From a virus: 64,000 bases of DNA. Within the stretch, counting starts at the first letter, position 1; every line of letters begins with the position of its first letter. A program made the translations under genes and the position numbers. The stretch spans positions 1 to 64,000 of IMG/VR virus record IMGVR_UViG_3300048438_000153; one strand, given 5' to 3'. The notes beneath the pieces were generated by a model. The model did not search any database and was not told where the DNA came from. It was given only the letters and a program-made list of their open reading frames with translations. Below are positions 4,641-64,000 of this stretch, piece by piece.

Positions 4641-4676
4641 GTTACTCTTAGTTACCCATTTCGGATACCTCAACTC
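4641..4676 (-). promoter_or_regulatory. Repeated early element, copy A
   Basis: On the minus strand it begins TTGAGGTATCC and ends GGTAACTAAGAGTAA, matching both ends of the other copies while the middle is shorter. It overlaps the stop codon of the gene at 4670-5134 and points into the structured non-coding stretch, not straight at a gene. Confidence 0.55.
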
Positions 4677-5134
4677 GCCCAACTCCAAGCGCGGTAGTCC
4701 TCAACGCCAACCTTGAGATACCACTGACCATTGATCGCCATGAAGACATCGCCCACTGAGAAAGTCTTAGCGGTTTCCTCATCCACGTTGTAGTCTCTCA
4801 GCACAAGAGCCCTAACCGTGTCCTCTCCCTCTGCTTTCTCGTAGAAACCACCATCGAGAATGATGCGCTCGTCAATGTCGTCAGTCAGAGCCATGAGCTT
4901 CTCCTCAAGAGACAGTCTGAGCTTATCCTCCTCCGTCTCAGGCTCTTGCTCCGAGAAATGGCAGTAGTCATCTTCAAGATAGACAGGAGGCTTGAGAGCC
5001 TTATTTGACGAAATCTCGTAAGCGCGCTCCAAGATCTCTTTCTTTTCAGGGATGGGCAAGTCACCCATAACTTCTTTCTTAAGAAGGGTCACTTGCTCTA
5101 CGGCATCTTTGAGTCGCTTGATGTAGTGGTTCAT
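4670..5134 (-). CDS. Hypothetical acidic protein (154 residues)
   Basis: Not recognised. The N-terminal half is helical and charged; the C-terminal part (YNVDEETAKTFSVGDVFMAINGQWYLKVG) looks like a small beta domain. The start has AAAGGA about 10 bases upstream. Its last codons overlap copy A of the repeated element. It sits among genes of similar size in the minus-strand accessory block; phage genes of this kind are often early host-takeover factors, which here is inference from context. Confidence 0.6.
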   Translation of the reverse strand: MNHYIKRLKDAVEQVTLLKKEVMGDLPIPEKKEILERAYEISSNKALKPPVYLEDDYCHFSEQEPETEEDKLRLSLEEKLMALTDDIDERIILDGGFYEKAEGEDTVRALVLRDYNVDEETAKTFSVGDVFMAINGQWYLKVGVEDYRAWSWAS

Positions 5135-5738: not shown

Positions 5739-5795
5739 ATTACTCTTAGTTACCCAATCCTGTTACCTCACCAATACCTCAACTTGAAACTTTCC
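5739..5795 (-). promoter_or_regulatory. Repeated early element, copy B
   Basis: On the minus strand it reads TTGAGGTATTGGTGAGGTAA, then a GATTGGG block and TAACTAAGAGTAAT. It ends about 40 bases before the ATG at 5698. A region of 58 bases (5756-5813), which also covers the last codons of the upstream gene, is identical but for one base to copy C (6346-6403), showing recent duplication. Confidence 0.7.
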
Positions 5796-6302
5796 CTAAG
5801 TGCCTAGAATCTCATCCCAAAACCACATCACGCCCTCTGTATCTACCGCGCCGACGAAGGTTGTGTACGCTACGATCTTAGCCCCTTCTCCAACTAGGAT
5901 CTCATCGTCAGTGTCAATGTAGTCATGCACCTGACGCTGAGTGCTCCAACTGTTAAGAGTACGAATCATAAAGTGCTGGAGATCCTGAAGAACATCCGAC
6001 TTGGGTATCATCTCAGCGCCCAAGATCTGATAAAACTCAGCTCCGTTGTTCTTTTCCCCAATGAGGCAGAAATGAACGGCAAAGCATCCCTCAACACCCT
6101 CTTCAGAGTGAACCTTCAAGTGAGATCTTTTGAGCGCCCCTGATCGTCTTAGGTCATGATTGAAGCACCTACCATCAAAGAACTCCCGATCCTCGGGGCG
6201 AGAGTTGCCTAAGTCGATGATCAACTCTGTAGCTACGGCCTTGATTGATTGGAAAGTAGGTGGAAGCCCGCTGACGTCGATTCGCTTTAGTGTTCCCATC
6301 AT
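5796..6302 (-). CDS. Hypothetical protein (168 residues)
   Basis: Not recognised. A soluble alpha/beta protein with Trp/Phe near the C-terminus (GVMWFWDEILGT). Two ATG codons stand in tandem at the start; GAGG lies upstream within the sequence joining it to element copy C. The 3' end, including ILGT and stop, belongs to the 58-base duplicated segment found again at 6346-6403. Confidence 0.65.
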   Translation of the reverse strand: MMGTLKRIDVSGLPPTFQSIKAVATELIIDLGNSRPEDREFFDGRCFNHDLRRSGALKRSHLKVHSEEGVEGCFAVHFCLIGEKNNGAEFYQILGAEMIPKSDVLQDLQHFMIRTLNSWSTQRQVHDYIDTDDEILVGEGAKIVAYTTFVGAVDTEGVMWFWDEILGT

Positions 6303-6329
6303 TGTTAGTTACCTCTCTGAAGTGGTGTT

Positions 6330-6385
6330 TACTCTTACTCTCTCAATCCTGTTACCTCACCAATACCTCAACTTGAAACTTTCCC
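6330..6385 (-). promoter_or_regulatory. Repeated early element, copy C
   Basis: On the minus strand: TTGAGGTATTGGTGAGGTAA, then GATTGAGAGAG and TAAGAGTAAA, ending about 26 bases before the start at 6302. The left part of the element is identical to copy B; the right part is closer to copy D. Confidence 0.7.
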
Positions 6386-6571
6386 TAAGTTCCTAGAATC
6401 TCTTCTTATCGAAGATTGATTTCTTTGATCATAGCTTTCGCAGGGGCATCTGCGCCCATAAAACTCTTCGTACACTTCGCATGAAGAGGGTTGTGAGGGG
6501 TGTTGATGAAAACGCTCGCTGTTATCAGCTAACCGTTGCTCTTCACAATCCGAGAAACTCTGAGAGCTCAT
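6368..6571 (-). CDS. Possible small hydrophilic protein (67 residues)
   Basis: The start overlaps the stop of the 106-residue gene as ATGA, which favours translation. The sequence is Ser/Arg/Gln-rich with a few cysteines and no family resemblance. The last residues (DSRNLGKVSS) are encoded by the duplicated 58-base segment read in a different frame from the gene at 5796, so the C-terminus looks captured by that duplication. It may be a decayed or newly formed gene. Confidence 0.4.
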   Translation of the reverse strand: MSSQSFSDCEEQRLADNSERFHQHPSQPSSCEVYEEFYGRRCPCESYDQRNQSSIRRDSRNLGKVSS

Positions 6572-8222: not shown

Positions 8223-8270
8223 GATTACTCTTACTCTCCCAATCCTGATACTCCACCAATACCTCAACTC
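8223..8270 (-). promoter_or_regulatory. Repeated early element, copy D
   Basis: On the minus strand: TTGAGGTATTGGTGGAGTAT, then CAGGATTGGGAGAG and TAAGAGTAAT, ending about 37 bases before the start at 8186. Its left end overlaps the last codons of the gene at 8264. Confidence 0.65.
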
Positions 8271-8644
8271 AAAATCTGATCTATGTCGCTGAAAAGGTAA
8301 AAGAAGATTTCTGAGCACCTCTCAGGAGTTAAGAAATCCTTGCCGAATCGAGGGTAAAAACTAAAATACTCAAGGGATGACTCGAAAGCCCTATCTCTCA
8401 AAGAGGTCTTGTTCTTAAAGATCTCTTTCGCGAGATCCTGTGCCCCCTCAAGAGTCTCTGCCTTACTTAGCTTGAGGCGTCCCCCACAGTCGTTATAACG
8501 AATAGAAGTTAAGCTATGGAAGTTAGCTTCGATGACATAGTAAGACCCTATTTTATTAATATAGCTTCCTTGTACGACAACTCCATCAGACTTGATCTTC
8601 CACAGACGATACCCTCTGACTTTATTAAAAGTGATCTTTCCCAC
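8264..8644 (-). CDS. Hypothetical protein (126 residues), GTG start
   Basis: Not recognised. The start is GTG at 8644 (MGKITFNKVRGYRLWKI) with GAAAGGG upstream. The first half is beta-rich, with a pattern (GSYINKIGSYYVIEANFHS) suggesting an antiparallel sheet; a Lys-rich helix follows (LSKAETLEGAQDLAKEIFKN), a layout common in small phage proteins that display query data to a helix. Element copy E lies about 21 bases upstream. Confidence 0.6.
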   Translation of the reverse strand: MGKITFNKVRGYRLWKIKSDGVVVQGSYINKIGSYYVIEANFHSLTSIRYNDCGGRLKLSKAETLEGAQDLAKEIFKNKTSLRDRAFESSLEYFSFYPRFGKDFLTPERCSEIFFYLFSDIDQILS

Positions 8645-8664
8645 GTCAAACCCTTTCTAGTTGA

Positions 8665-8712
8665 GACTCTTAGTTACTTTCCCAAACCTGTTACCTCACC
8701 AATACCTCAACT
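8665..8712 (-). promoter_or_regulatory. Repeated early element, copy E
   Basis: On the minus strand: TTGAGGTATTGGTGAGGTAA, then CAGGTTTGGG and AAAGTAACTAAGAGT. Only about 21 bases separate it from the GTG start, which limits the leader to little more than the ribosome site if transcription starts just after TAACTA. Confidence 0.65.
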
Positions 8713-8916
8713 CAACCTCCTCTGATTCTCTAGCCAAAGACGCGCCGAGTGAGAGAGATCCACCACATCCACTCGGTTCACTCCAATAACCTTTCTTTCT
8801 GTTACAGCCTCCGCGTCCCTCTCCGCTAAGAGCCTCAGACTATATGCCCGACTAACTCTCCCAATGTGCGCCGAGTCTATAGGCTGACCCGTTAATCTGT
8901 CTTGTAAGTAGTACAC
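8707..8916 (-). CDS. Small hypothetical basic protein (69 residues), GTG start
   Basis: Not recognised. Arg-rich and mostly helical (AHIGRVSRAYSLRLLAERDAE). The GTG start at 8916 has a GAGAGA purine stretch upstream; an out-of-frame ATG lies two bases earlier. First gene of the minus-strand accessory block, reading away from the control region at 8917-9188. Its stop is followed immediately by element copy E. Confidence 0.5.
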   Translation of the reverse strand: MYYLQDRLTGQPIDSAHIGRVSRAYSLRLLAERDAEAVTERKVIGVNRVDVVDLSHSARLWLENQRRLS

Positions 8917-9188
8917 ATTCTCTCTCTTTCTTTCTTAATAAGCCCTACTCTCTTCCCATGCCCTATAAAGACTACACAAAATCACCGCTGTATCCAAAAA
9001 CCCTCCCTTGAAATCAAAACGAAAGATTCTTAAATACTTATCTGTCTCCACTCAGGGGGGGAACCTCACTTAACCCTATAAAATCCCCATCTAACTCTCT
9101 CTTGTAGTGCGATGCGGAGGGTATAACCTAGAAGACTTTCTTAAAGTAGGGACACTAGACAACAAAACACAGTGAAAGAGAGGGATGT
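8917..9188. other. Divergent control region between early (-) and structural (+) operons
   Basis: 272 bases without a gene. It holds a purine/pyrimidine-rich start region for the minus gene, a candidate + promoter at 9008-9036, two TATAAA stretches (8964-8971 and 9077-9084) that resemble the T4-type late promoter core TATAAATA, a run of seven G at 9055-9061, and GAGAGGG before the ATG at 9189. No promoter is proved. Confidence 0.5.
9008..9036 (+). promoter_or_regulatory. Candidate promoter for the + structural operon
   Basis: TTGAAA at 9008-9013, a 17-base spacer, then TAAATA at 9031-9036. The -35 box is five of six to consensus and the spacing is ideal, but the -10 box is weak. TAAATACT also resembles a T4-type late core. 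Either reading would start transcription about 150 bases before the first structural gene. Confidence 0.35.
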
Positions 9189-9770
9189 ATGCCAACACCG
9201 TTAGAGTTGGAGAGTAGTGTAAGGGCAAGCGACCCTACGGGTATCTTTCTCAGTCCTATGGGTGGGCTTAAGTTGAAGGGTATTTGTGTGGGTATCTCTA
9301 CATGGTTGAGGGTGGGCTATACAGTGAGTTCTTTCTCTGTGGGTTCAGGGGGGGTGGGTGCTTGTCAGGGTAGTCTCTTTCTTAATGTGGGGGGGGCATC
9401 TTCTCTTATGTTGAGGAGTCTAACAGGGACAGGACAGATGAGTGGTTTACTTGTATCGTCTTATGCTTCTGCACTAGGAAATGGGATAGCGAGTCTACCT
9501 TATCTTATTAGCGGTGTGAGTCCTTCAGTGGGGGTAGGTACATTCACAGTGACGGGTGGTGTGGGAGAGCCTATTAGTTTAGTGGGTGCTCTTCAGAGTG
9601 GATTAGTGAGTGTGGGTTATAATGGAGTGGTGTCATCTTTGGAGATAGGCGGTATTTCTGAGGGTGTAGTGAGTTTATTTACTGTGGGAGTGAGTGGAAC
9701 AGGCGGAGTGGTAGGCACACCTAGTCCGTCGGGTTTATCTGCACCTAATGCGCCATTGTTTGTGCTTTAA
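9189..9770 (+). CDS. Gly/Val/Ser-rich probable virion protein (193 residues)
   Basis: First gene of the + structural operon. The protein has almost no charged residues after residue 30 and consists of short beta-prone runs with Gly turns. The phrase GSLFLNVGGASSL recurs as GSVFLNVGGVSLL in the next, 2884-residue protein, so the two are partly related. A decoration-type or fibre-cap structural role is plausible. The gene is extremely G/T-rich on its coding strand, and contains runs of seven (9348-9354) and eight (9389-9396) G. Confidence 0.6.
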   Translation: MPTPLELESSVRASDPTGIFLSPMGGLKLKGICVGISTWLRVGYTVSSFSVGSGGVGACQGSLFLNVGGASSLMLRSLTGTGQMSGLLVSSYASALGNGIASLPYLISGVSPSVGVGTFTVTGGVGEPISLVGALQSGLVSVGYNGVVSSLEIGGISEGVVSLFTVGVSGTGGVVGTPSPSGLSAPNAPLFVL

Positions 9771-9779
9771 GGAAAAGAC

Positions 9780-12700
9780 ATGAAAGAGATCATATTAGAC
9801 GCGAGGTCAAGTAACCGTAATGACACCTCTACAGGGTTAGCTCTACGAGAAGTCTTAGACAGGGGGGCTTATGTAGGGGGCTTACGAGGAGACTTGATGT
9901 TTCTTTCTGAGGGTAACGGAAAGATCATTGATCGTGATGTTTCCGTAAGCGAGTTGGGTGAGGGTTCTTTCTTAGAGGTTCGTGGTGGTGATGTTCTTTA
10001 TGGTGGGGTGAGGGGATTGAGTGAGGGAGACTATGTGAAGAGGGGCGTAGTTCTTTCTTGGACTCGTAATGACACAGAGCGCGTAAGATTTAGCGGAGAC
10101 TTTGATTTATTGGGAGGGGGAAACCGCTTGTCATTGGGTGTAGTGGGAGGTGATTTAGCTAGGTTGGTTTCTTTCTCTGAGGGTGTGGAGTTACGCATAG
10201 GGGGGGATGGTTTAGACGATAGCGAGTGGTCATCGAAGATTGGGGGTGGCGAGATTGTTTTCACGGATGGGGAGTTGGGTGAGTATGTGTTCTTGGGAGA
10301 TGAGAAAGTAGTGTATGGAGGAGACGGAAGTCTTAGGATAAAGGAGGGTGAGTTTGATGAGGGCTTAGAGGTTTGGTTTGTGGGGGTGGAGCTTTTGGGA
10401 GTGGAGGTGTTGGGAGTGGATTCAGGAGAGGCTTTTCTTTCTCCTGTACCTTATGTGTATGAGCACATTTATTTGAGGGTAGGCTCAGAGGGTCACATAG
10501 GCTCAGAGCAGATGACGTATTGTTATTCTGACGCGGAGTGTAGGGGGTTAGATTTAGGGGAGTACGGAGTGGCTTTGAGTCTCTCTAGTGGGCTATTGAG
10601 GTTTGGTTCTAGTTACGAGGGTAAAGAGATCAGGTATGAGGGATTACTCTTAGGTAGGTGTGGTGAGTTAGTCTCTGAGCAAGTGGTGACGAATGGAGGT
10701 TTAGTGAGCGAGGGAGATATTCTTTCTACGGGTGTGGACAGTGTATCGGGAGAGCTTGTTGGTTTAGGTTATGGGAGTGTGTTTCTTAATGTAGGGGGGG
10801 TGTCATTATTGCCTGTGGTTTCGGGGGACAAGGTGAGGTCGGGAGACAGGGCTTATTTCGGTAGTGATGGGCGCATTAGATTGAAGCGTGGGGTTGAGTT
10901 ATTGGGTCAGGTTCGAGGCACAGGTATTTTGAAGTTGGTTCAGAGTTTCTTTCCTTGTCGCATGGAGAGGGTGGGTGTGTCACAGAAGAAAGTGTTGGGT
11001 CTTGATGGGAGTGTGGACTTAGCGAGTGGTGGTGTGGTGAGCTACACGCCTGATGGAGTTGTGACAGGAAACGGTGTGATATCTCCCTCGGGTCATTTAG
11101 TCTTAGGAGATGGGGAGGACTTCGCGAGCTATGATGAGTCTTTGGGTGCAGTGCCTTTGGGTCTAGGTACAGGAGTTGTGTTAGCTCTTAGGGGCGAGGG
11201 TGTGAATGGCTTTAGAGAGCTTGAGGATTTCATTGTTTCTGACGGCTTGAGGTCGGGGAGTACTTTCTCTTTCTTAGACTTTGTTCCGCGCACTGACTTT
11301 AGTGGTTATGGCGTGGGGTCTAACTATTTCAAAGCGGGTGAAGAGGTCTTGAAGCTCGGGGAGGACTTGGAGTATGACTTCGCTGACAGGAGAGCGCCGA
11401 AGGTAGGTTGGATAGAGGGGCGTACTCGTGCTTCAGAGTTAAAGAACCCGACTTCTTTCTTTCAGTTGGAATCGGGTGTTGTTGTGGGCTCGACCTCGAT
11501 CAAGCTCTCTAGTGGTACGAGCGTGGAGGTCTTAACAGAGGGCTTAGACTATGACTTACCCTTTGAGGCTCAGGGGGGCTTTGCGCGTCAGATCGCTGAG
11601 TTAGGTGGAGAGCGCACTAGGGGCTATAAGAGCGTCAAGGTGAGTGACACTGAGGCGATTCTTTCTGACTTGGTTTTAGAGCCTTCGGTGGGCAACTACC
11701 TTGTCTATGAGGGAGACTCTCTTTACAGGGAGGTTCTTTCTTTCTTAAAGGAGGAGAGTGGTGGTCATCGTGTAGAGTTGAGCAGTGGTTCTATCTATGA
11801 CCTGAGAGGAAACGAGACTGTGGGAGACTTAACAGGAGGTTGGGTCTTATACGAGGGGGTGTTAGGGGATGTCTCGGGTGGTGAAGTGAACCTCATGAGA
11901 GTCAACGATGAGTGTTTCGTGGACTTGCCCCTCTCTGACGAGCCTTTCTTGAGGGTCTACAAGACGTATTCAGCGAGTACAGCTCAGGAGGTGGGCTTAG
12001 TCTTATCTAAGGTGAGTCCAAAGAGTGTTCTTTCTGCTCGTCTTGAGGGTGGTTCAGATGTACCTCTCGTTGTTCTTTCTAATGAGGTATTGCCTAATAG
12101 AGTCATGGATGTCTCTTCGGCACATTACGTGAGCGGAGACTATAAAATCTTAGTAGACGGTGTAGAGAACACTTCTTTTTCAGTGGGCGCTGAGGGTTTG
12201 ATTTCTTTCTCACCTGTGATTGATGACTTAAGCGAGGTAGTTTTTCAGCCTCAGCCGAGATCTCTTGAGACTCAAGTTGAGTACCTGAACGGAGTGATGG
12301 GTTCATCTCTCCCTGTGGTAAAAGTCTTAGAGGAGCTCGTGGACACTGAGTATCGGGTTCAGCCGATCACAGGGGTTATTTCTTTCTCACAGCCTTTAGA
12401 CGAGGCTGTTGGCGTGGAGGTCTTGTATACTCCCGTAGACCCTGAGACTCAGGAGGCTCTTTCTCAGAAGAGAGAGACGATTTTGTTTGTCAAGACGCTT
12501 GAGACGTGTACTCGCGTTAGTGACAGGCTTTTTACTTTCTCTGAGAGCGCATACTTGGATATCACGCCACAGGTGTATGTGGACGTCTTAGAAGCATCAG
12601 GTGTGGTAGTCAGAGATGGCGAGATCGAGTTTGTCTTTGACGTGGCTGAGTCTGCGACGGTAGCTATTTCTTATGTGAGGGAGGGATCACTTGGCGGTGA

Positions 12701-15700
12701 GTACACGGTCAAGGTAGCAGAAGAGATATTCAAACCCTTTATTCAGTTGAGCGCCCACGCTAGTGAGATGACTCTTTCTGAGAGGTCGAGCATCCCTGAG
12801 TTATCTGTGGGTGAGGTGTTGGATTTGGGTTCTCACAGTGTGCTCGTTTCGGGAGTCTCGGGGAACGTGATTTCTTTCTCGCCACCTTTGAGGTTTGGCT
12901 TGAATGTGAGCTCAATCAAGCGCACGAGTAGAGCGGATTTATTTCTGTCAGTGGAGGGCGCGGATTTGACCTCTAAAGGCAAGTCCTCAGACCTTTTCTT
13001 AAAGGGAAACTACAGGGATTTAATCGCCCCTAACTCAGTGTTGATCCTTGAGGGATCGACTCCACATAGGGTCAGGAACGTAGTCTTCTTAGAGGAGGGG
13101 GTAACTCAAGTCGCCGTCTATGGTTACGCTTCGGCTCATGTCCTTTCTTCTTTCTCGGTGTCTGTTAGGCCGATACCGAATGAGGGGGATGTGGTCTTGG
13201 GCGGAGTCGGCGCGGTAGCGGTGGACTTGGGTTCAGTCTTAATCAAGGAAAGGAACGGACTTGGGTTGCCTTTAGAGCCGAGTGTGGACTACTTACTTGA
13301 GCCCGACACAGGAGTCGTGACCCTCATTAACGGACATCGCGTTGAGGAGGGTACGCGTTATACTCTGAGGTACACCGCGATCAGCTCTGTTTCACCCACC
13401 TATAATGCTGACGGTTCAGTGAGCTATCCTAAGTACAGCGCGACTTATTCTGTGAGAACGGACGCGAGCAAGTATGAGGGCTTACCCTTACTTGCTAAGT
13501 GCGTGATTGAGACGAAAGACAAGTTCATTCTCCCTATCGTGGATGAGGATTCTTACTCAGCCGAGATTTCAGCACAGCTCCTTCAGGAATCCTCTCCTAC
13601 TTCGGGAGAGAAGCAGGGATCTACGCCTTCTCCTAGACAGGGTGTGTCAGTGGGCTTGTTTGATAACCTCGCGAGAGATGTCATCGCGAGGAATAAGATT
13701 TCTTTCTACCACGCAGTTTCTAACGTGGTGGATGATTGGGTCAGTACCACCACAGGTAAGGTTGTTGGCGATCAAGATGGACGCTTTAGGTTCGATATTG
13801 AACAGGGAGACCTCAACTATGTGGGAGACGGACTCGAAGACCCTGTAACAAGAGTCTTAAAACCACGCTACGCGCCTCTTGAGTTCCTAGAGGGTATCGA
13901 CATAACCCTCACCGAGAAAGATGACTACAGTGGGCTTTCTGTGAACACTCTGAGAGGTGTCTACAGAGGTCAGGTTTCTTTCGTAGAGAATGAGATGGAC
14001 GATTACGTTTTAGTAGGGACAAAGACAGTGCGGTCGTTGAGCCTGATCGCTCCTTTCTTAAGTGTGGATCTCGTGCCTCGGTACGCTCAGATGTGGAAGC
14101 CTCACGGATATTCTAGACTCTACCCTGAGCGTGGTTCTTTCTTCTCCGTTCTCTACCCTTCTGACGTGGGTTACTCTTACCCTGAGACGGAGGGCTCTGT
14201 GATCGGTCAGATCGAGAACGGCTCTAAGGGGGAGATCAAGGGCATTACAGGGATATCTTCACTGAGAAAGCGCCCTTGTCGTATGAGGGTTCTCGACTTC
14301 AAGCCGTATGGCTACCCTTCAGTGGTGGGGTCTAAGGGCAGACCGACTTTCTTAGTGTCTGTCGTCTCCTACGACGAGTTCCCTTATGACGCTCAGGGCA
14401 ACCCTGACACGTCTAAGTTGATTTATGAGGGTAATCCTACAGGTGAGTTCCCTTCGGTGATTACAGGCAATCCTAGTCTTTCTTTCGGAGGTCTTTCTGT
14501 AGGCTCTGTTCTTGAGCTTGGGCGACAGGGATCAGGTTTCTCTGTGCTGTTAGATAACTCTGAACAAAAGCAGTCAGACGCTAATCTCTTTCCCGATCTC
14601 TTCTCGTCAGCACCCAAGAAAGTACGAGTGAGAGAAGTCGTTGAGGGGTGTTATGTGGTATTGGAGGGGCGCGCTAGTTCAATGGAGTGGAGTGGGCTAA
14701 GTCTTACAGAGGCGAACCCTAGAAAGGGAGATACTCTCCTTGAGTCTTTACAGGGAGATATTGACGACACCGAGAGCAGAGGAGGCTTCTTCAGAGTCGG
14801 TTCTGACGTGGGAGTCAATAACGGCTCGGGTGAGGTGGTCGATATATCTCTCCCTTCAGTGAGTGATCCCAACTTCCCCTTAAAAGAAATCTTCGAGCAA
14901 AACACGCCGAGCCCCCTCTTGTCTTTCGAGGGAGAGGTTCAGTTCGCTAACCGAGAAACATCTCCTTTCTTGTTTTCCGCGCTCTTGGGTGACGCACTCA
15001 ATGACAGTGGAGACGAGTCTATCCCTTATCTCTCTCAGTTAAGCGAGAGGGAGCTTCTCGCTGACGTGACTCAAGCGATGGGAGGTATCCTCAGAATAAC
15101 TGAGGGAGGTTCTTATGTGTACCCTGACGAGATCCCTGATGACGAGGGTGAGATCGCTTCAGGCAAGCTCATTCTTTCCTCTAGCCTAACGCCTTTCTCA
15201 GACGGCGAGATAGGCTCTAAGGATGTTGAGCAAGGGGATTTAGTCTTAGTAGATCTCTCTGATGGCGCTTCAGGTCTGATTGAAGTCTCTACTGTAGATG
15301 GAGGCATCTTACCTCCGAGGTTTAAAGCCCCTGTAAGTCAGGGTAATCTTCAGTACAAGCTCACGGACTACTATGAGGCTGATGTTTCTGTTTCGGGCAT
15401 TGGGTTGAGGATAGGTCAGTTTCAGTTTGGAGGGGGCTACCTCACTAAATTCTTACTTGCTACGAACGCGACACCTACGGACTACTTGACCTATGACGCG
15501 CTCATCACTTTCATAGAGCAAGCGACGAGCGGAAAGCACAACTCTTTCGATCTTTCTTTCTTAGGGGCTATGCTTAACTTCGTCTATGACGGTGCTTGGG
15601 AGATCTTTGACAATTTGTCAGGCAACCACATCTCCGTAAATATAGACACTTACGGCGCTAATCAGGGACAGCCTATTGTGGATCGAGGCTTTGAGATTTT

Positions 15701-18434
15701 CTCTCCCACTCCTGTCATCAGCCAAGCTGTGTGGACTACTGTGATCATCCCTAACGGCGGTGTTCTTTCTACGATAGATCACGTCACTGAGACGTATATT
15801 CTTGACGGCGCGTCCTCGACAGGACACGACTTTAAAGTCTCGCTCAACTTCCTTGAAACGGACGTATACTTGGGGGGCAACCCAACAACAGAGGTCGGAG
15901 GTAGCCAAACTGCTCAGATTCTCTCTGACAGGCTCTCTCTTTCCGAGAATGGGTCTTTCTTAGGGGGGCTTGCTTCCTCTAACGCAGAGCTAGAAATTGG
16001 GGTCTGTGACGTAGGCGCTGTAGCAAACAGTGACATCAACTCTACAGCCAACATTAACGGCGGAGTAGGGTTCAACCCACTGACAGGATCTGCCAATACT
16101 CTTAGAGTCCCTGCTTTCTACGGCTACGGAAACACACCCATTTCTAAGAGTGGATTGAAGCTCACAACTCTCGTCGGCTCAAGGGTCACAGAGGGAAGCA
16201 CGATCTACGAGGAAGTGGGAGCTACTCTTAACTATGACTTGGGTGCTGTGGAAGCTTCAGGCGACCTTTCTTTCTCAAGACCTCAAGACCTGATCTTCAT
16301 TGATGGTGGGCATAGCTCAGGAACTCATAGGATTGAGGGCGTCATAACTGAGCCTATCACCTCTGCTGAGTACACAGTGTTTGCGCCCAAGATAATGAAC
16401 CTTACTGACAATGGAGACGGCACTTTCGATATAGAGCTTTCTTCCCTAGTAAGTGAGTATTATGACCCTTCGCCTGTAGAGGTGAGCGTGATCATAAGCC
16501 AAGCTAACATCAGGAGCGCAGACGCACCCACCGCGAATGCTTCGGGAGTTATTCTTACTGTAGACTCGGTTGATGGCTCGACGCTCACTGTCTCAGGGAT
16601 TGTATCTGATCTTGATGGTGTGGGTGTCGAGGGAGGCATCTCTGACTTGATCCGAGAGGGACAAGACCTCATAGGATTTGATCGAGTGTCTTTTGACCCG
16701 AACAAGACAGAGATCGGTTTTTCTTTCTTAAGGTTCAGCGCCTCAGCGATTGACGGCGATAGTAGCTTCACACCTCATGGCGTGGGTCTTTCTTTCGACA
16801 TTAACCCGACCAACAGTTCTTTCTCTAACGGCTTGGGTTATCTCTATCTCAATAACAGCGCGCCCCCTCCAAGTGTTCACTACTTACTGACAGGAGATAA
16901 GATCACGCTCACAGTGGATATTAAGAAAGGACTCTACATCGACCCTTCTTTCCCTCGTATGTGTAACAACTATGGGAGCTCAAACCCTAACTACTTCGGC
17001 ACAGCGACGGCTTATGGTCTGTATGACCCTAGTGGGGCTTTCACCTCTGAAATAGTAGATGTCTCTGTGAGGAGGTTGAGGCGGTTCAGTGACATATTCT
17101 TGAGGCTCTCTTCTTCTTTCTCCGCGCTCAACCCTCTCTATGAGATTAGGAGAGGGCTTGTAAACACTTTAACGAAGCTCGGAAATATTGTAACTCTTAC
17201 CGCGAGCCCTGTTAATCGTGAGGGAGTCTCAGACCCTAGTGGAAAGGACACTCAAGTAGGAGATTTCGCCGAGGCGGTTTCTATGGGCGATAAGATCACA
17301 GTTCTTAATAGCGACGGTGATCAGGCAATGAGACTCAAGGTTCTTTCTGTTGGCTCTGAGGTCAAGTGCCTCTACATCTCGGGTGATATCCCTGTAGGTG
17401 CTTCTTCTTTCTCTGTTGAGGTGAGAAATGGGATTGTCCCTCAAGAACAGATATTCGATAAGTTCGTGGGTCTTTCTTTCTCTGAGATATACAGCTCGGA
17501 GCTTGGGAAGGTTCAAGGGGGTTCTCTGAGGGATGGGAACGCATCTCTCAACTTCCTTTCTTTCGAGAGTCTCATCGGTCAATATATCTTAATAGATCCA
17601 CAGGGATCACTAGACACTCCTGACGAGTACGGCGCACCGCCTCAAGGTGATACAGGAAAGATTAGCACTACAGGCTATGTCGTGGGATCTGTGAGCCCCT
17701 TCGACGACAACCGAGGACTCTATAAGATCGTGGGCGTGGAGGCAGATAATCTTACGGTTGAGCCTGTCATCCCTGTGGAGGGCATTGCGCCCTCTGACTA
17801 TAGCTTCCTACCTAGCGTGAACGGTGTTGATGGCACAGCACTTAGAGACACCGCCCCTCAAGCTAACGGAACACACGACGACCCCTCTAATAGCTCTTTC
17901 TCTATTGAGCCTTTCTCATACAAGATTCTGAAAGCTAACACAGAGGTGGCTGAAGAGATGATCGCCTCGGTGATGATGATGAGGGAAAGAACGCTCTCTT
18001 GGATGGAGCTTCTTTCTTCTTTCAACGAGATCAGACCCTACACATGGTCTGAGTATGTGTCGGAGGGTCTGATTTCTGAGGTGGGTGAGGACGATAAGAC
18101 TTATCTCACGAATGAGGAGCTTTTAGTCGTAGAGGGCAACACAGGAGTCACACCGCTTGACGTTCCTTTCGTGACGAACAGTAGGTGTCTTTCTGTGTTG
18201 GCTAGGCGCTTTTTAGTGGAAGACGACAGGCTTCTCTTTGAGGGTTACTCTGAGGTTGGAGATGCCCTCCCAAGTCTATTAGAGAATGGTATCTCCTTTA
18301 TAGAAGCGCGAGAGAAGAGGTACTCTTGGTTAAATGTACGGGCGGGTTTGCTTACAGGCACACTTGCTAAGATTGACCGAGTGGACTTCAACAACCCTAA
18401 CAACAAGGCGTTAGAGGACATTAACGATGAGTGA
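9780..18434 (+). CDS. Giant virion structural protein (2884 residues)
   Basis: A single uninterrupted frame with AAGGAAAA before the ATG. It is beta-rich throughout, with many short repeats of the type GYKSVKVSD, VDYLLEPDTGVVTL and YRVQPITGVISFSQP that read like strings of immunoglobulin-like or fibre-type modules. The first 500 residues are Gly/Val/Glu-rich; around residue 1290 a Ser/Pro/Gln linker (SSPTSGEKQGSTPSPRQG) separates two halves; the last 170 residues are helical (AEEMIASVMMMRERTLSWMELL). I infer a baseplate- or tail-associated host-recognition protein. Coding-strand G excess is extreme at the 5' end and disappears by about 14 kb. It overlaps the next gene by 8 bases. Confidence 0.75.
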   Translation: MKEIILDARSSNRNDTSTGLALREVLDRGAYVGGLRGDLMFLSEGNGKIIDRDVSVSELGEGSFLEVRGGDVLYGGVRGLSEGDYVKRGVVLSWTRNDTERVRFSGDFDLLGGGNRLSLGVVGGDLARLVSFSEGVELRIGGDGLDDSEWSSKIGGGEIVFTDGELGEYVFLGDEKVVYGGDGSLRIKEGEFDEGLEVWFVGVELLGVEVLGVDSGEAFLSPVPYVYEHIYLRVGSEGHIGSEQMTYCYSDAECRGLDLGEYGVALSLSSGLLRFGSSYEGKEIRYEGLLLGRCGELVSEQVVTNGGLVSEGDILSTGVDSVSGELVGLGYGSVFLNVGGVSLLPVVSGDKVRSGDRAYFGSDGRIRLKRGVELLGQVRGTGILKLVQSFFPCRMERVGVSQKKVLGLDGSVDLASGGVVSYTPDGVVTGNGVISPSGHLVLGDGEDFASYDESLGAVPLGLGTGVVLALRGEGVNGFRELEDFIVSDGLRSGSTFSFLDFVPRTDFSGYGVGSNYFKAGEEVLKLGEDLEYDFADRRAPKVGWIEGRTRASELKNPTSFFQLESGVVVGSTSIKLSSGTSVEVLTEGLDYDLPFEAQGGFARQIAELGGERTRGYKSVKVSDTEAILSDLVLEPSVGNYLVYEGDSLYREVLSFLKEESGGHRVELSSGSIYDLRGNETVGDLTGGWVLYEGVLGDVSGGEVNLMRVNDECFVDLPLSDEPFLRVYKTYSASTAQEVGLVLSKVSPKSVLSARLEGGSDVPLVVLSNEVLPNRVMDVSSAHYVSGDYKILVDGVENTSFSVGAEGLISFSPVIDDLSEVVFQPQPRSLETQVEYLNGVMGSSLPVVKVLEELVDTEYRVQPITGVISFSQPLDEAVGVEVLYTPVDPETQEALSQKRETILFVKTLETCTRVSDRLFTFSESAYLDITPQVYVDVLEASGVVVRDGEIEFVFDVAESATVAISYVREGSLGGEYTVKVAEEIFKPFIQLSAHASEMTLSERSSIPELSVGEVLDLGSHSVLVSGVSGNVISFSPPLRFGLNVSSIKRTSRADLFLSVEGADLTSKGKSSDLFLKGNYRDLIAPNSVLILEGSTPHRVRNVVFLEEGVTQVAVYGYASAHVLSSFSVSVRPIPNEGDVVLGGVGAVAVDLGSVLIKERNGLGLPLEPSVDYLLEPDTGVVTLINGHRVEEGTRYTLRYTAISSVSPTYNADGSVSYPKYSATYSVRTDASKYEGLPLLAKCVIETKDKFILPIVDEDSYSAEISAQLLQESSPTSGEKQGSTPSPRQGVSVGLFDNLARDVIARNKISFYHAVSNVVDDWVSTTTGKVVGDQDGRFRFDIEQGDLNYVGDGLEDPVTRVLKPRYAPLEFLEGIDITLTEKDDYSGLSVNTLRGVYRGQVSFVENEMDDYVLVGTKTVRSLSLIAPFLSVDLVPRYAQMWKPHGYSRLYPERGSFFSVLYPSDVGYSYPETEGSVIGQIENGSKGEIKGITGISSLRKRPCRMRVLDFKPYGYPSVVGSKGRPTFLVSVVSYDEFPYDAQGNPDTSKLIYEGNPTGEFPSVITGNPSLSFGGLSVGSVLELGRQGSGFSVLLDNSEQKQSDANLFPDLFSSAPKKVRVREVVEGCYVVLEGRASSMEWSGLSLTEANPRKGDTLLESLQGDIDDTESRGGFFRVGSDVGVNNGSGEVVDISLPSVSDPNFPLKEIFEQNTPSPLLSFEGEVQFANRETSPFLFSALLGDALNDSGDESIPYLSQLSERELLADVTQAMGGILRITEGGSYVYPDEIPDDEGEIASGKLILSSSLTPFSDGEIGSKDVEQGDLVLVDLSDGASGLIEVSTVDGGILPPRFKAPVSQGNLQYKLTDYYEADVSVSGIGLRIGQFQFGGGYLTKFLLATNATPTDYLTYDALITFIEQATSGKHNSFDLSFLGAMLNFVYDGAWEIFDNLSGNHISVNIDTYGANQGQPIVDRGFEIFSPTPVISQAVWTTVIIPNGGVLSTIDHVTETYILDGASSTGHDFKVSLNFLETDVYLGGNPTTEVGGSQTAQILSDRLSLSENGSFLGGLASSNAELEIGVCDVGAVANSDINSTANINGGVGFNPLTGSANTLRVPAFYGYGNTPISKSGLKLTTLVGSRVTEGSTIYEEVGATLNYDLGAVEASGDLSFSRPQDLIFIDGGHSSGTHRIEGVITEPITSAEYTVFAPKIMNLTDNGDGTFDIELSSLVSEYYDPSPVEVSVIISQANIRSADAPTANASGVILTVDSVDGSTLTVSGIVSDLDGVGVEGGISDLIREGQDLIGFDRVSFDPNKTEIGFSFLRFSASAIDGDSSFTPHGVGLSFDINPTNSSFSNGLGYLYLNNSAPPPSVHYLLTGDKITLTVDIKKGLYIDPSFPRMCNNYGSSNPNYFGTATAYGLYDPSGAFTSEIVDVSVRRLRRFSDIFLRLSSSFSALNPLYEIRRGLVNTLTKLGNIVTLTASPVNREGVSDPSGKDTQVGDFAEAVSMGDKITVLNSDGDQAMRLKVLSVGSEVKCLYISGDIPVGASSFSVEVRNGIVPQEQIFDKFVGLSFSEIYSSELGKVQGGSLRDGNASLNFLSFESLIGQYILIDPQGSLDTPDEYGAPPQGDTGKISTTGYVVGSVSPFDDNRGLYKIVGVEADNLTVEPVIPVEGIAPSDYSFLPSVNGVDGTALRDTAPQANGTHDDPSNSSFSIEPFSYKILKANTEVAEEMIASVMMMRERTLSWMELLSSFNEIRPYTWSEYVSEGLISEVGEDDKTYLTNEELLVVEGNTGVTPLDVPFVTNSRCLSVLARRFLVEDDRLLFEGYSEVGDALPSLLENGISFIEAREKRYSWLNVRAGLLTGTLAKIDRVDFNNPNNKALEDINDE

Positions 18435-24184: not shown

Positions 24185-24189
24185 TTACC

Positions 24190-24233
24190 TTGAGGTATTG
24201 GTGAGGTATCAGGATTGGGTGACTAAGGGTAAT
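24190..24233 (+). promoter_or_regulatory. Repeated early element, copy F (plus strand)
   Basis: The only plus-strand copy: TTGAGGTATTGGTGAGGTAT, then CAGGATTGGG and TGACTAAGGGTAAT, ending 24 bases before the ATG at 24257. Being flipped together with its gene, it strengthens the case that the element works in an oriented way, like a promoter. Confidence 0.7.
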
Positions 24234-61759: not shown

Positions 61760-64000
61760 CTACAATACCGTTAATGTGATCACATAATCCCTAATCACAT
61801 TCGGGCTCTGATTAAGCCGAGTCGAGTCTCCAACCAAGCTCGTAGACTGATTCAAGACTAAGTTAGGTGCATACAGACTGCCCTCGTCCACAAGAACAGG
61901 CATTGGCGCTTTGAAGCCTGAGTAATCAACGTCTGTGAGATCATCGTCATAGAAGACTTCTTCGCCTGACCTTCCTGAAGAAGACTCTTCTTTCCTATGA
62001 TAGAAAGTTCTTTCTGTGTCGCCTACATGACCCCCTGTTAAGAGTCTTCTCCCTTGAGGGTTGCTCATGAGAGCTTCTACAGAGGGCGTCTCTATACTCA
62101 GTTTAGGGTCGAAGTTATAGGTCTTAGGCTCAATGAAAGGCACTTGTCCTTCACTCAGAGTTTCCCCACCTCTGTTCCAATCTTGGTTGGCTGTCAGAGG
62201 ACGGTTTGAGATCGCCTCTAAGCGCACCATTTCTCCATCAAGACCGTCTATGTATAAGACACCGCTATCGACTCTGTAATCAGCGATCTCGGAGCTGTCT
62301 GACAAGAGCGTGAGGGTGATGATGTAGCTAGGGATGAAACCGAAGGCGTGGAGTGGTACTGAACCATTGATGACCTTTGCGTTCCCTCTCGCTAAGTCTG
62401 ATATTCTTTCTTTCTCAATCCCTTGAAAGAGATCCGATTGATTGAGCTTCAGCGCGCCCAAAATCAAGTTCGCGTTGTTAAGCCCGTGAGTCCTCTTCAC
62501 AGAGGTTTTGACGCTAAAAAGCTCTTTCGTGAGCGGTGTCTCAGGAGATGCCGGAAATAAGCCTAGAGCGGGTAGGCTCGAAGTGCCTAATACCCTTAGA
62601 CTTTTCTCCTGATATAAGCCCCGGTTCGCGTCTGAATCAGGTGTCGTGACTCGCCTTCCGTTGTTGAGTACAAAAGAAGGGCTGTTGAGGTCTGTGTACG
62701 AGAACACATCACCTTCTCCATAGGGAACTCTGAAAGAAAGAACTGTACCTTCGGCCTCAAGTGTTGAAAGGGTCAGTCTATTAGTGATCGCGTCGTAACT
62801 CTCAATAACGAGCCCATCTATGCTCGTAAGGTCACTCGCGATGATAGGCATCCCCTTGAATGTCTTTCTCAGGGGGAGACTCAGCTCAACAGTGGTCTGT
62901 GTGTCAGTAGGGTCATTCTGAACTGTGACTTGAGTTGATCTGTACCTTAAAGGTGCGCTCTTCCAAGAGTAGTCTCGGAAAGTAACCTCTGAAAAGCCGT
63001 CTGTGGTAGCGATGTTGTCTGAGATGACCTCAAGCGCCCTAACATAGAAAGTGTTTCTCGCGCGCACCTCGATGAAGAAAGCAGACCCATCTAACAGAAG
63101 AAGCTCTCCCTCCCCTAAGAAAGAGAGGAGGCTGTTCCCTAAGTCGTTCGTAAAGTACCCATTGGTAATCGAGCTTGTTCCTGACTGAGACAGACGTGGT
63201 GCTTCCCAAGAATAAACTCCATCTTCAGGTCTAATCTCCTCTATAGAGACAGCGCGCCTGACTTGATGCTTGACTCCAACTCCGATTGCTCCTGTGTAGC
63301 CCACAGCTCTCGTTAGAAGACCTCCCGATTCCTCCACAAGACTCTTAAAGACTCGGATGCTTTTCCCTACTCCATACCCATAGACCACGCTCTCATAAGT
63401 ACCAGCTCTTGCTTTCCTCATGTTCTGTTGGAAAGAAGAGGCGTAAGTGAGACACAAGGGGCTCAAATCTCCCCACTCGACAAGACCATCTTCTGAAGAA
63501 ACCTCGTCATACTCGGGGGTAGCCTCAGTCGGATTATTTCTCAGGAAAGTAACCGTCTTGAACGAGGGGTGCGTGATGCTCTCACCTAGTAGAGAACTCA
63601 CCTCTCCTATCTTGACGTGGGCGGGCTTAGTGACGTTTAAGAGTTTTCTGATGTTCGCTTGGAGCTCAAGCACTTGCTGAGGTAGTCCGAAGTCTATTTC
63701 GTGTGTGTGCTCCGCGCCCTCTGAGTTAGTGTAGGGTTGAACCTCTCCGTTGATGACATCATGTTGGTGGAGATCATCTCCCCAAGAGTAGCCGATAGGA
63801 GAAAGGGTTGACCCGAGCCCCTGATCAGGAGCGAATACGAAGTGTCTATGCCCATCAGCCACCTTTGTGTAACTTAAGATAGACGTAAGGACGCTTATCA
63901 GGTGATTGTCAACCTGAGTGATCTCGACCCTAGAGCCACCCGAAGAGGTTGAGAGCAAGTCGAGGATCGCGCTCTCTTTCGACCCCTCAATCAACGCCAC
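61760..64000 (-). CDS. Partial large virion protein with His-pair loop (746+ residues)
   Basis: Continues past the right edge; the GTG at the boundary is probably not the true start. Beta-rich. Near the visible N-terminal end DGHRHFVFAPDQG, DLHQHDV and AEHTHEID give spaced H-x-H pairs, which could bind a metal as in some trimeric fibre tips. The Pro/Ser-poor C-terminal half is made of beta repeats. Belongs to the giant-protein operon. Confidence 0.65.
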   Translation of the reverse strand: MALIEGSKESAILDLLSTSSGGSRVEITQVDNHLISVLTSILSYTKVADGHRHFVFAPDQGLGSTLSPIGYSWGDDLHQHDVINGEVQPYTNSEGAEHTHEIDFGLPQQVLELQANIRKLLNVTKPAHVKIGEVSSLLGESITHPSFKTVTFLRNNPTEATPEYDEVSSEDGLVEWGDLSPLCLTYASSFQQNMRKARAGTYESVVYGYGVGKSIRVFKSLVEESGGLLTRAVGYTGAIGVGVKHQVRRAVSIEEIRPEDGVYSWEAPRLSQSGTSSITNGYFTNDLGNSLLSFLGEGELLLLDGSAFFIEVRARNTFYVRALEVISDNIATTDGFSEVTFRDYSWKSAPLRYRSTQVTVQNDPTDTQTTVELSLPLRKTFKGMPIIASDLTSIDGLVIESYDAITNRLTLSTLEAEGTVLSFRVPYGEGDVFSYTDLNSPSFVLNNGRRVTTPDSDANRGLYQEKSLRVLGTSSLPALGLFPASPETPLTKELFSVKTSVKRTHGLNNANLILGALKLNQSDLFQGIEKERISDLARGNAKVINGSVPLHAFGFIPSYIITLTLLSDSSEIADYRVDSGVLYIDGLDGEMVRLEAISNRPLTANQDWNRGGETLSEGQVPFIEPKTYNFDPKLSIETPSVEALMSNPQGRRLLTGGHVGDTERTFYHRKEESSSGRSGEEVFYDDDLTDVDYSGFKAPMPVLVDEGSLYAPNLVLNQSTSLVGDSTRLNQSPNVIRDYVITLTVL

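Follow-up and report, generated by a model that had tools for sequence, protein, structure and literature searches.

Why the coding strand of a jumbo phage genome should become extremely rich in G where one very long gene begins, and lose that richness within a few kilobases, is the question raised by the left part of the record IMGVR_UViG_3300048438_000153, of which bases 1–64000 make up the stretch under study (referred to as the window). An earlier note on this DNA had counted 25 G and 4 C at 9961–10020, 26 G and 3 C at 10261–10320, 17 G and 16 C at 14041–14100, and slightly more C than G at 17101–17160, and these counts proved exact (14 G and 17 C for the last). The remainder of the 275,102-base record was read as eleven stretches, and the whole was scored in 1-kb bins. 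It was clear that the local bias is genuine and that the genome-wide skew plot is not flat, since the GC skew of +0.58 at 10–11 kb was the largest absolute value of the record, with the 11–12 kb and 9–10 kb bins ranking third and fourth, respectively. Moreover, the same kilobase was the most strand-biased one of the record in keto skew (i.e., G+T minus A+C), which, in contrast to GC skew, hardly depends on the strand of the genes in this record (–0.028 for plus-strand and –0.021 for minus-strand genes). Record-wide, keto was flat at –0.02 (robust SD of 0.036), whereas the 10–11 kb bin reached +0.39, and the four bins from 9 to 13 kb deviated by +6.3, +11.5, +7.6, and +5.8 SD. Given this deviation of 11.5 robust SD and its repetition in relatives, chance or local noise was rejected, as was a whole-genome replichore skew, since keto was flat outside the biased arms and no replichore-wide G+T skew with a single sign change at an origin was seen.

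A run finder (500-base windows) returned just two runs in the record, at 9101–13301 (+) and 273101–274301 (–). The first of these (referred to as arm a), also traced in a 300-base profile and by 1-kb robust z-scores, is a stretch in which the coding strand has an extreme excess of G+T; the excess set in abruptly near 9.1 kb, peaked at 10.0–10.9 kb, and had faded by 13–15 kb, with a tail reaching to about 15 kb. Its description as a bias of G over C captured the G excess but was incomplete, in that T also exceeded A (AT skew of about –0.2) and G+C content stayed constant (0.46–0.52). Arm a starts with a 193-aa ORF (9189..9770, +) without PHROG or Pfam match, followed by a 2884-aa ORF (P0001; 9780..18434, +), in which the bias was strongest in the first 500 codons and faded within the gene. 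The fading inside one gene thus held for the 2884-aa gene, but the onset lies upstream, in intergenic DNA at about 9.1 kb, and the bias spans the 193-aa gene as well. No PHROG match was found for P0001, and no family match confirms the earlier label of structural operon. The expected shift in protein composition did accompany the bias, with Gly and Val making up 30% of residues 1–500 and 19% of residues 1500–2884.

The sign of the skew flipped between windows 9000–9199 and 9100–9299, around an intergenic switch point (9040..9188, +) from which the plus strand is C-rich leftward and G-rich rightward, and which is a putative promoter region. The onset is located where a transcript should begin, as had been proposed. 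A consensus scan revealed no sigma-70-like promoter at 9.1 kb, where a promoter is still possible, and the predicted RNA fold of 9040..9188 was no better than that of shuffled sequences. Leftward of the switch point, a weaker arm b (8501..9100, –) diverged from arm a, with G over C on the minus strand and a keto of 0.13–0.18 in the 300-base profile. As a separate observation, no gene of the record had a more negative coding keto (–0.16) than the last one of the leftward block (927–2009, –); there the plus strand is G+T-rich (+4.7 SD), as if exposure came from the other side.

At silent sites, two-fold C/(C+T) dropped to 0.15 in the first gene and 0.39 in the first 500 codons of P0001, compared to a reference of 0.56, and was restored to 0.54 at 11.3–12.8 kb. 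In parallel, G/(A+G) ran along the arm as 0.76, 0.73, 0.73, 0.69, and 0.68, compared to a reference of 0.57. The C-to-T part is thus gone within about 2 kb of the start, while the A-to-G part declines more slowly, and a similar reach of A-to-G beyond C-to-T was found in two relatives (G003 and G007). Both the silent C-to-T excess near the start on the coding strand and the A-to-G excess that outreaches it are features of transcription-associated asymmetry. In the second arm (273101–274301), C/(C+T) was 0.30–0.49 and G/(A+G) 0.77–0.78, and Fisher tests on pooled silent counts, which treat sites as independent, yielded 6e-8 and 3e-5 for arm a and 2e-3 and 2e-8 for the second arm. Four-fold sites shifted more than non-silent positions, although the latter shifted too. 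The C-to-T change previously invoked was borne out by the fall in silent C/(C+T), but as sole cause it was rejected, since it would lower G+C, whereas G+C stayed constant and A dropped as well. Constant G+C requires an A-to-G component, and deamination of an exposed strand is expected to produce just such a joint loss of C and A and rise of G and T. C was lost from arm a in every neighbour context (0.46–0.72-fold by 5′ and 0.42–0.71-fold by 3′ neighbour), with no strong preference on either side.

The second arm is the outward counterpart of arm a on the minus strand and was missed by the earlier note, together with the conservation of the pair in relatives. Its shape resembles that of arm a, as it was biased from its start, peaked about 0.9 kb in, and faded over about 2.7 kb (300-base profile), while its genes are unrelated, encoding a 230-aa helix-turn-helix protein and an 845-aa protein without Pfam match. 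The right end of the record and its first 3.7 kb both recur unchanged in another contig of this virus (G002; 3300047375_001083), which bridges them with 10.8 kb of additional sequence. This makes the map circular, with two onsets about 20.7 kb apart that face outward, and a contig-end artefact was rejected. Within the bridging segment, which is absent from the record, an AAA ATPase lies beside a weak VWA-domain match (L095 5165–7339), and a 536-aa ORF there carries a long Gly/Asp/Glu/Lys repeat. This genome (G000) and the relatives G003, G009, and G007 share a conserved non-coding block that lies upstream of the second arm, even though the genes that follow differ. It comprises CATATTGAAAACGCATTGAAAATGA...TTTGAAACCATGTTT and then, at a distance, GGGGGGGTCTTA and CATATATTATTTG in G000, G003, and G009; it could be an origin, given its iteron-like TTGAAA repeats, or a promoter, given its AT-rich boxes.

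Copies of a promoter-like element (TTGAGGTATTGGTGAGGTAACAGGATTGGGTAACTAAGAGTAA) are clustered in the leftward block, both between the arms and next to them, and 10 of the 11 copies point leftward. One copy (TTGAGGTATTGGTGAGGTAACAGG...) lies at 8668..8711 (–), and the others in the window were found at 4642–4685, 5740–5783, 6329–6372, and 8225–8268 (all –) and at 24189–24232 (+). Stretch L012 contains five copies, all on the minus strand (2804–2847, 5791–5834, 6493–6536, 9374–9417, and 10122–10165). Independently, the 8-mer TTCTTTCT/AGAAAGAA occurred 307 times in coding sequence versus 53 expected from synonymous-codon shuffles (e.g., at 9901, 9965, 10051, 11734, and 12028 in the window), with 28 sense copies in the 2884-aa gene versus 2.2 expected. 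At 1.29 per kb, versus 0.06–0.10 per kb in relatives, it appears to be a genome-wide DNA motif peculiar to this phage. As a cause of the arms the motif was rejected, because it is enriched on the plus strand from 1 to 20 kb and shows no flip at 9.1 kb; it is a separate matter. Finally, several short words were strongly avoided in coding sequence (observed/expected of 119/1468 for CTGG/CCAG, 32/249 for CCGG, 111/427 for GGCC, 175/662 for AATT, and 17/166 for GGTCTC), with CTGG at 0.47 per kb versus 2.5–4.3 in relatives, possibly reflecting restriction-site avoidance.

Relatives were found through the DNA polymerase of the record, which retrieved contigs about 55% identical in that protein, while single-protein scans of viral contigs for P0001 and for a 447-aa protein gave no matches. 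Orthologs of P0001 (34–38% identity) were present in G003 (375.7 kb), G007 (290 kb), G009 (227 kb), and G004, and the comparison with relatives called for earlier revealed that the spike recurs where the orthologous gene begins, with keto in the strongest bins of –0.48 in G007, –0.32 in G003, and –0.28 in G009. In the first 40 kb of G004, which has the opposite orientation, keto was +0.29 at this start. Outward partner arms were returned by the run finder at 62.2–63.6 kb in G007 and 363.3–364.2 kb in G003, and a weak one, with a keto of 0.1–0.16 that is below the threshold of the run finder, lies at 107.8–112 kb in G009, with 24–30 kb between partners in these three relatives. Since G004 equals G009 and G011 equals G003 over the compared regions (the G011 stretch being one base apart), these are not independent, and such near-identical pairs offered no changes to polarise. 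We therefore counted four lineages, of which G003 and G009 are closely related (82–89% alike over most of the arm region). At 34–38% protein identity silent sites are saturated, so each deep lineage must have renewed the bias. The onset in G003 and G009 falls within a 200–250-base gap between co-directional genes, where a promoter would be. This gap is about 85% conserved and contains a stem-loop with one compensatory pair (in a comparison of two sequences), and the genes upstream of it are unbiased, at silent sites in G003 (those checked) and overall in G009. A third arm upstream of arm a in G003 and G009 was considered and rejected, as G+T over the minus-strand genes there is ordinary coding bias. 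As background from outside this group, we used lambda, a 50-kb part of T4, and a small number of 20-kb loci; genes beyond the window were called as the longest ORFs in stretches of 20 kb.

The second arm of G007 allowed coding sense to be separated from DNA strand. Three plus-strand genes with a four-fold C/(C+T) of 0.00 are followed by a minus-strand gene (63543–64472), antisense to the arm, in which this ratio was inverted (0.77 and 0.70, versus 0.43) and G/(G+A) was 0.38 and 0.11, versus 0.47. The bias hence follows the DNA strand in a way that codon choice or protein needs cannot produce and, assuming that transcription runs through this gene, tracks the transcribed strand rather than the reading frame. 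The earlier view that gene-specific selection is not responsible is thereby sustained, as the bias affects all codon positions, recurs on other genes in the second arm and in relatives, and inverts in an antisense gene. Small proteins of the second arm and the region preceding it in G007 (L040 2353–3535, i.e., G007 62353–63535) and G003 (L070 2529–4896) have a short G-(E/K/D)-R-(V/R/Q)-W stretch in common near their N-termini and are possibly a paralogous family. In LR745208, no bias was seen where the distant homolog starts, and most genes beneath the sole run of LR745208.1 (L104 42000–48000) are on the opposite strand, with keto switching near 42 kb and a plus-strand G+T excess of up to 0.35 over mostly minus-strand ORFs. 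This further local arm is thus not tied to sense coding, and replication or antisense transcription would explain the run better than transcription in the sense direction.

Taken together, we favour, at a probability of roughly 0.52, a mutational origin of the bias, in which the non-template strand would be exposed downstream of each of two strong transcription starts and would mutate asymmetrically from C to T and from A to G. These starts, about 21 kb apart on the circular map and placed from the position of the bias onsets, would fire away from each other, and dense RNA polymerase traffic or RNA–DNA hybrids would keep the non-template (i.e., coding) strand single-stranded over the first kilobases. 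Deamination of C to T and of A to G on that strand would then cause a G+T drift at constant G+C, strongest for C-to-T within about 2 kb and extending further for A-to-G, with silent sites drifting first and proteins being carried along. On this reading the starts would be promoters, and mutation rather than selection would set the composition. Against it, only two arms exist per genome although many transcripts must begin elsewhere, and neither the unbiased homolog start nor the run over opposite-strand genes in LR745208 is anticipated. Nor does deamination account in full for the coding-strand purine excess (G over C beyond transitions). Moreover, G003 and G009 diverge by about 14% in the arm versus 11% elsewhere, which is barely higher and indicates no large rise in overall mutation rate. 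With one model per family, Pfam searches recognised neither a uracil glycosylase nor a multi-subunit RNA polymerase beta domain in these phages.

The same chemistry on the same strand could also stem from replication initiation, if an annealed transcript primed outward leading-strand synthesis at two R-loop origins and left the displaced strand single-stranded for a few kilobases. This would account for arms that number only two per genome, always point outward, and lie 21–30 kb apart, for the conserved iteron-like block upstream of the second arm, and for a keto switch in LR745208 that is independent of gene strand. T4, whose replication begins from R-loops at its origins (PMC3016281), offers a precedent, but no skew arms of such size occur in its first 50 kb, which contains oriA. 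As genome-wide leading-strand skew is absent and the G003/G009 onset sits at a promoter-like gene gap, we consider this origin of the arms possible but rather unlikely. Somewhat more doubtful still is its extension, in which the paired outward arms would be R-loop-primed origins in a whole group of huge phages, mappable by a composition scan alone, and exposure of the displaced strand would have driven the Gly/Val-rich proteins.

Selection at the RNA level, for a C-poor, G-rich leader kept against Rho-type termination or degradation of a long transcript, would fit the near absence of four-fold C in the G007 arms and the very long gene that begins at the arm. It seems improbable, however, since it would not need the depletion of A, and the bias runs into the antisense gene of G007 and fades long before the transcript ends. 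For a DNA deaminase with sequence preference, or host-defence hypermutation, one could cite the strong and local loss of C and the one or two PF00383 deaminase-fold genes per genome; yet C is lost in every context, A-to-G change is present, and these genes are most simply read as dCMP deaminases, leaving such an enzyme very improbable. Although 30% Gly and Val at the start of P0001 might suggest that Gly/Val-rich proteins brought the G along, protein composition or codon choice as main cause was ruled out by the biased silent sites and the inverted gene of G007, and the products of the second arm are an unrelated helix-turn-helix protein (G000) and other small proteins (G007 and G003), so that this explanation retains hardly any credibility. 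G-quadruplexes were also dismissed as a general cause, as their motifs occurred only in the G007 arms, plus one in G000.

Such strand exposure has probable counterparts in known systems. In mitochondria, replication is asymmetric and the exposed strand becomes G+T-rich through deamination of C and A, although the result there is a genome-wide gradient rather than local arms. At the 5′ ends of vertebrate genes, the non-template strand shows an excess of C-to-T change that is local to the first 1–2 kb and one of A-to-G change that reaches further (Polak, Querfurth and Arndt 2010, PMC2927911); the mammalian asymmetry, which extends beyond gene ends, is explained there by R-loops, transcription-coupled repair, and exposure of the non-template strand (PMC2927911). 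The layering in the phage arms is alike, but in vertebrates a small rate asymmetry emerges from averaging over thousands of genes, whereas in the phages two loci per genome approach the limit of composition, with four-fold C/(C+T) down to 0.00–0.12. In E. coli, the non-transcribed strand is likewise single-stranded and more mutable during transcription (e.g., PMC2866735), while composition arms on a kilobase scale were not described in the literature searched.

If transcription-linked exposure is indeed responsible, these phages would record strand exposure in an extreme, natural, and strictly local form, in which silent sites lose nearly all their C within kilobases of either fixed point and the pattern is renewed in each lineage. 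Promoters or origins of uncultured huge phages would then be readable from composition, and the arms would be a clean system for telling mutation associated with transcription apart from that associated with replication. Finally, the Gly/Val-rich makeup of proteins encoded near such starts need not reflect protein function.
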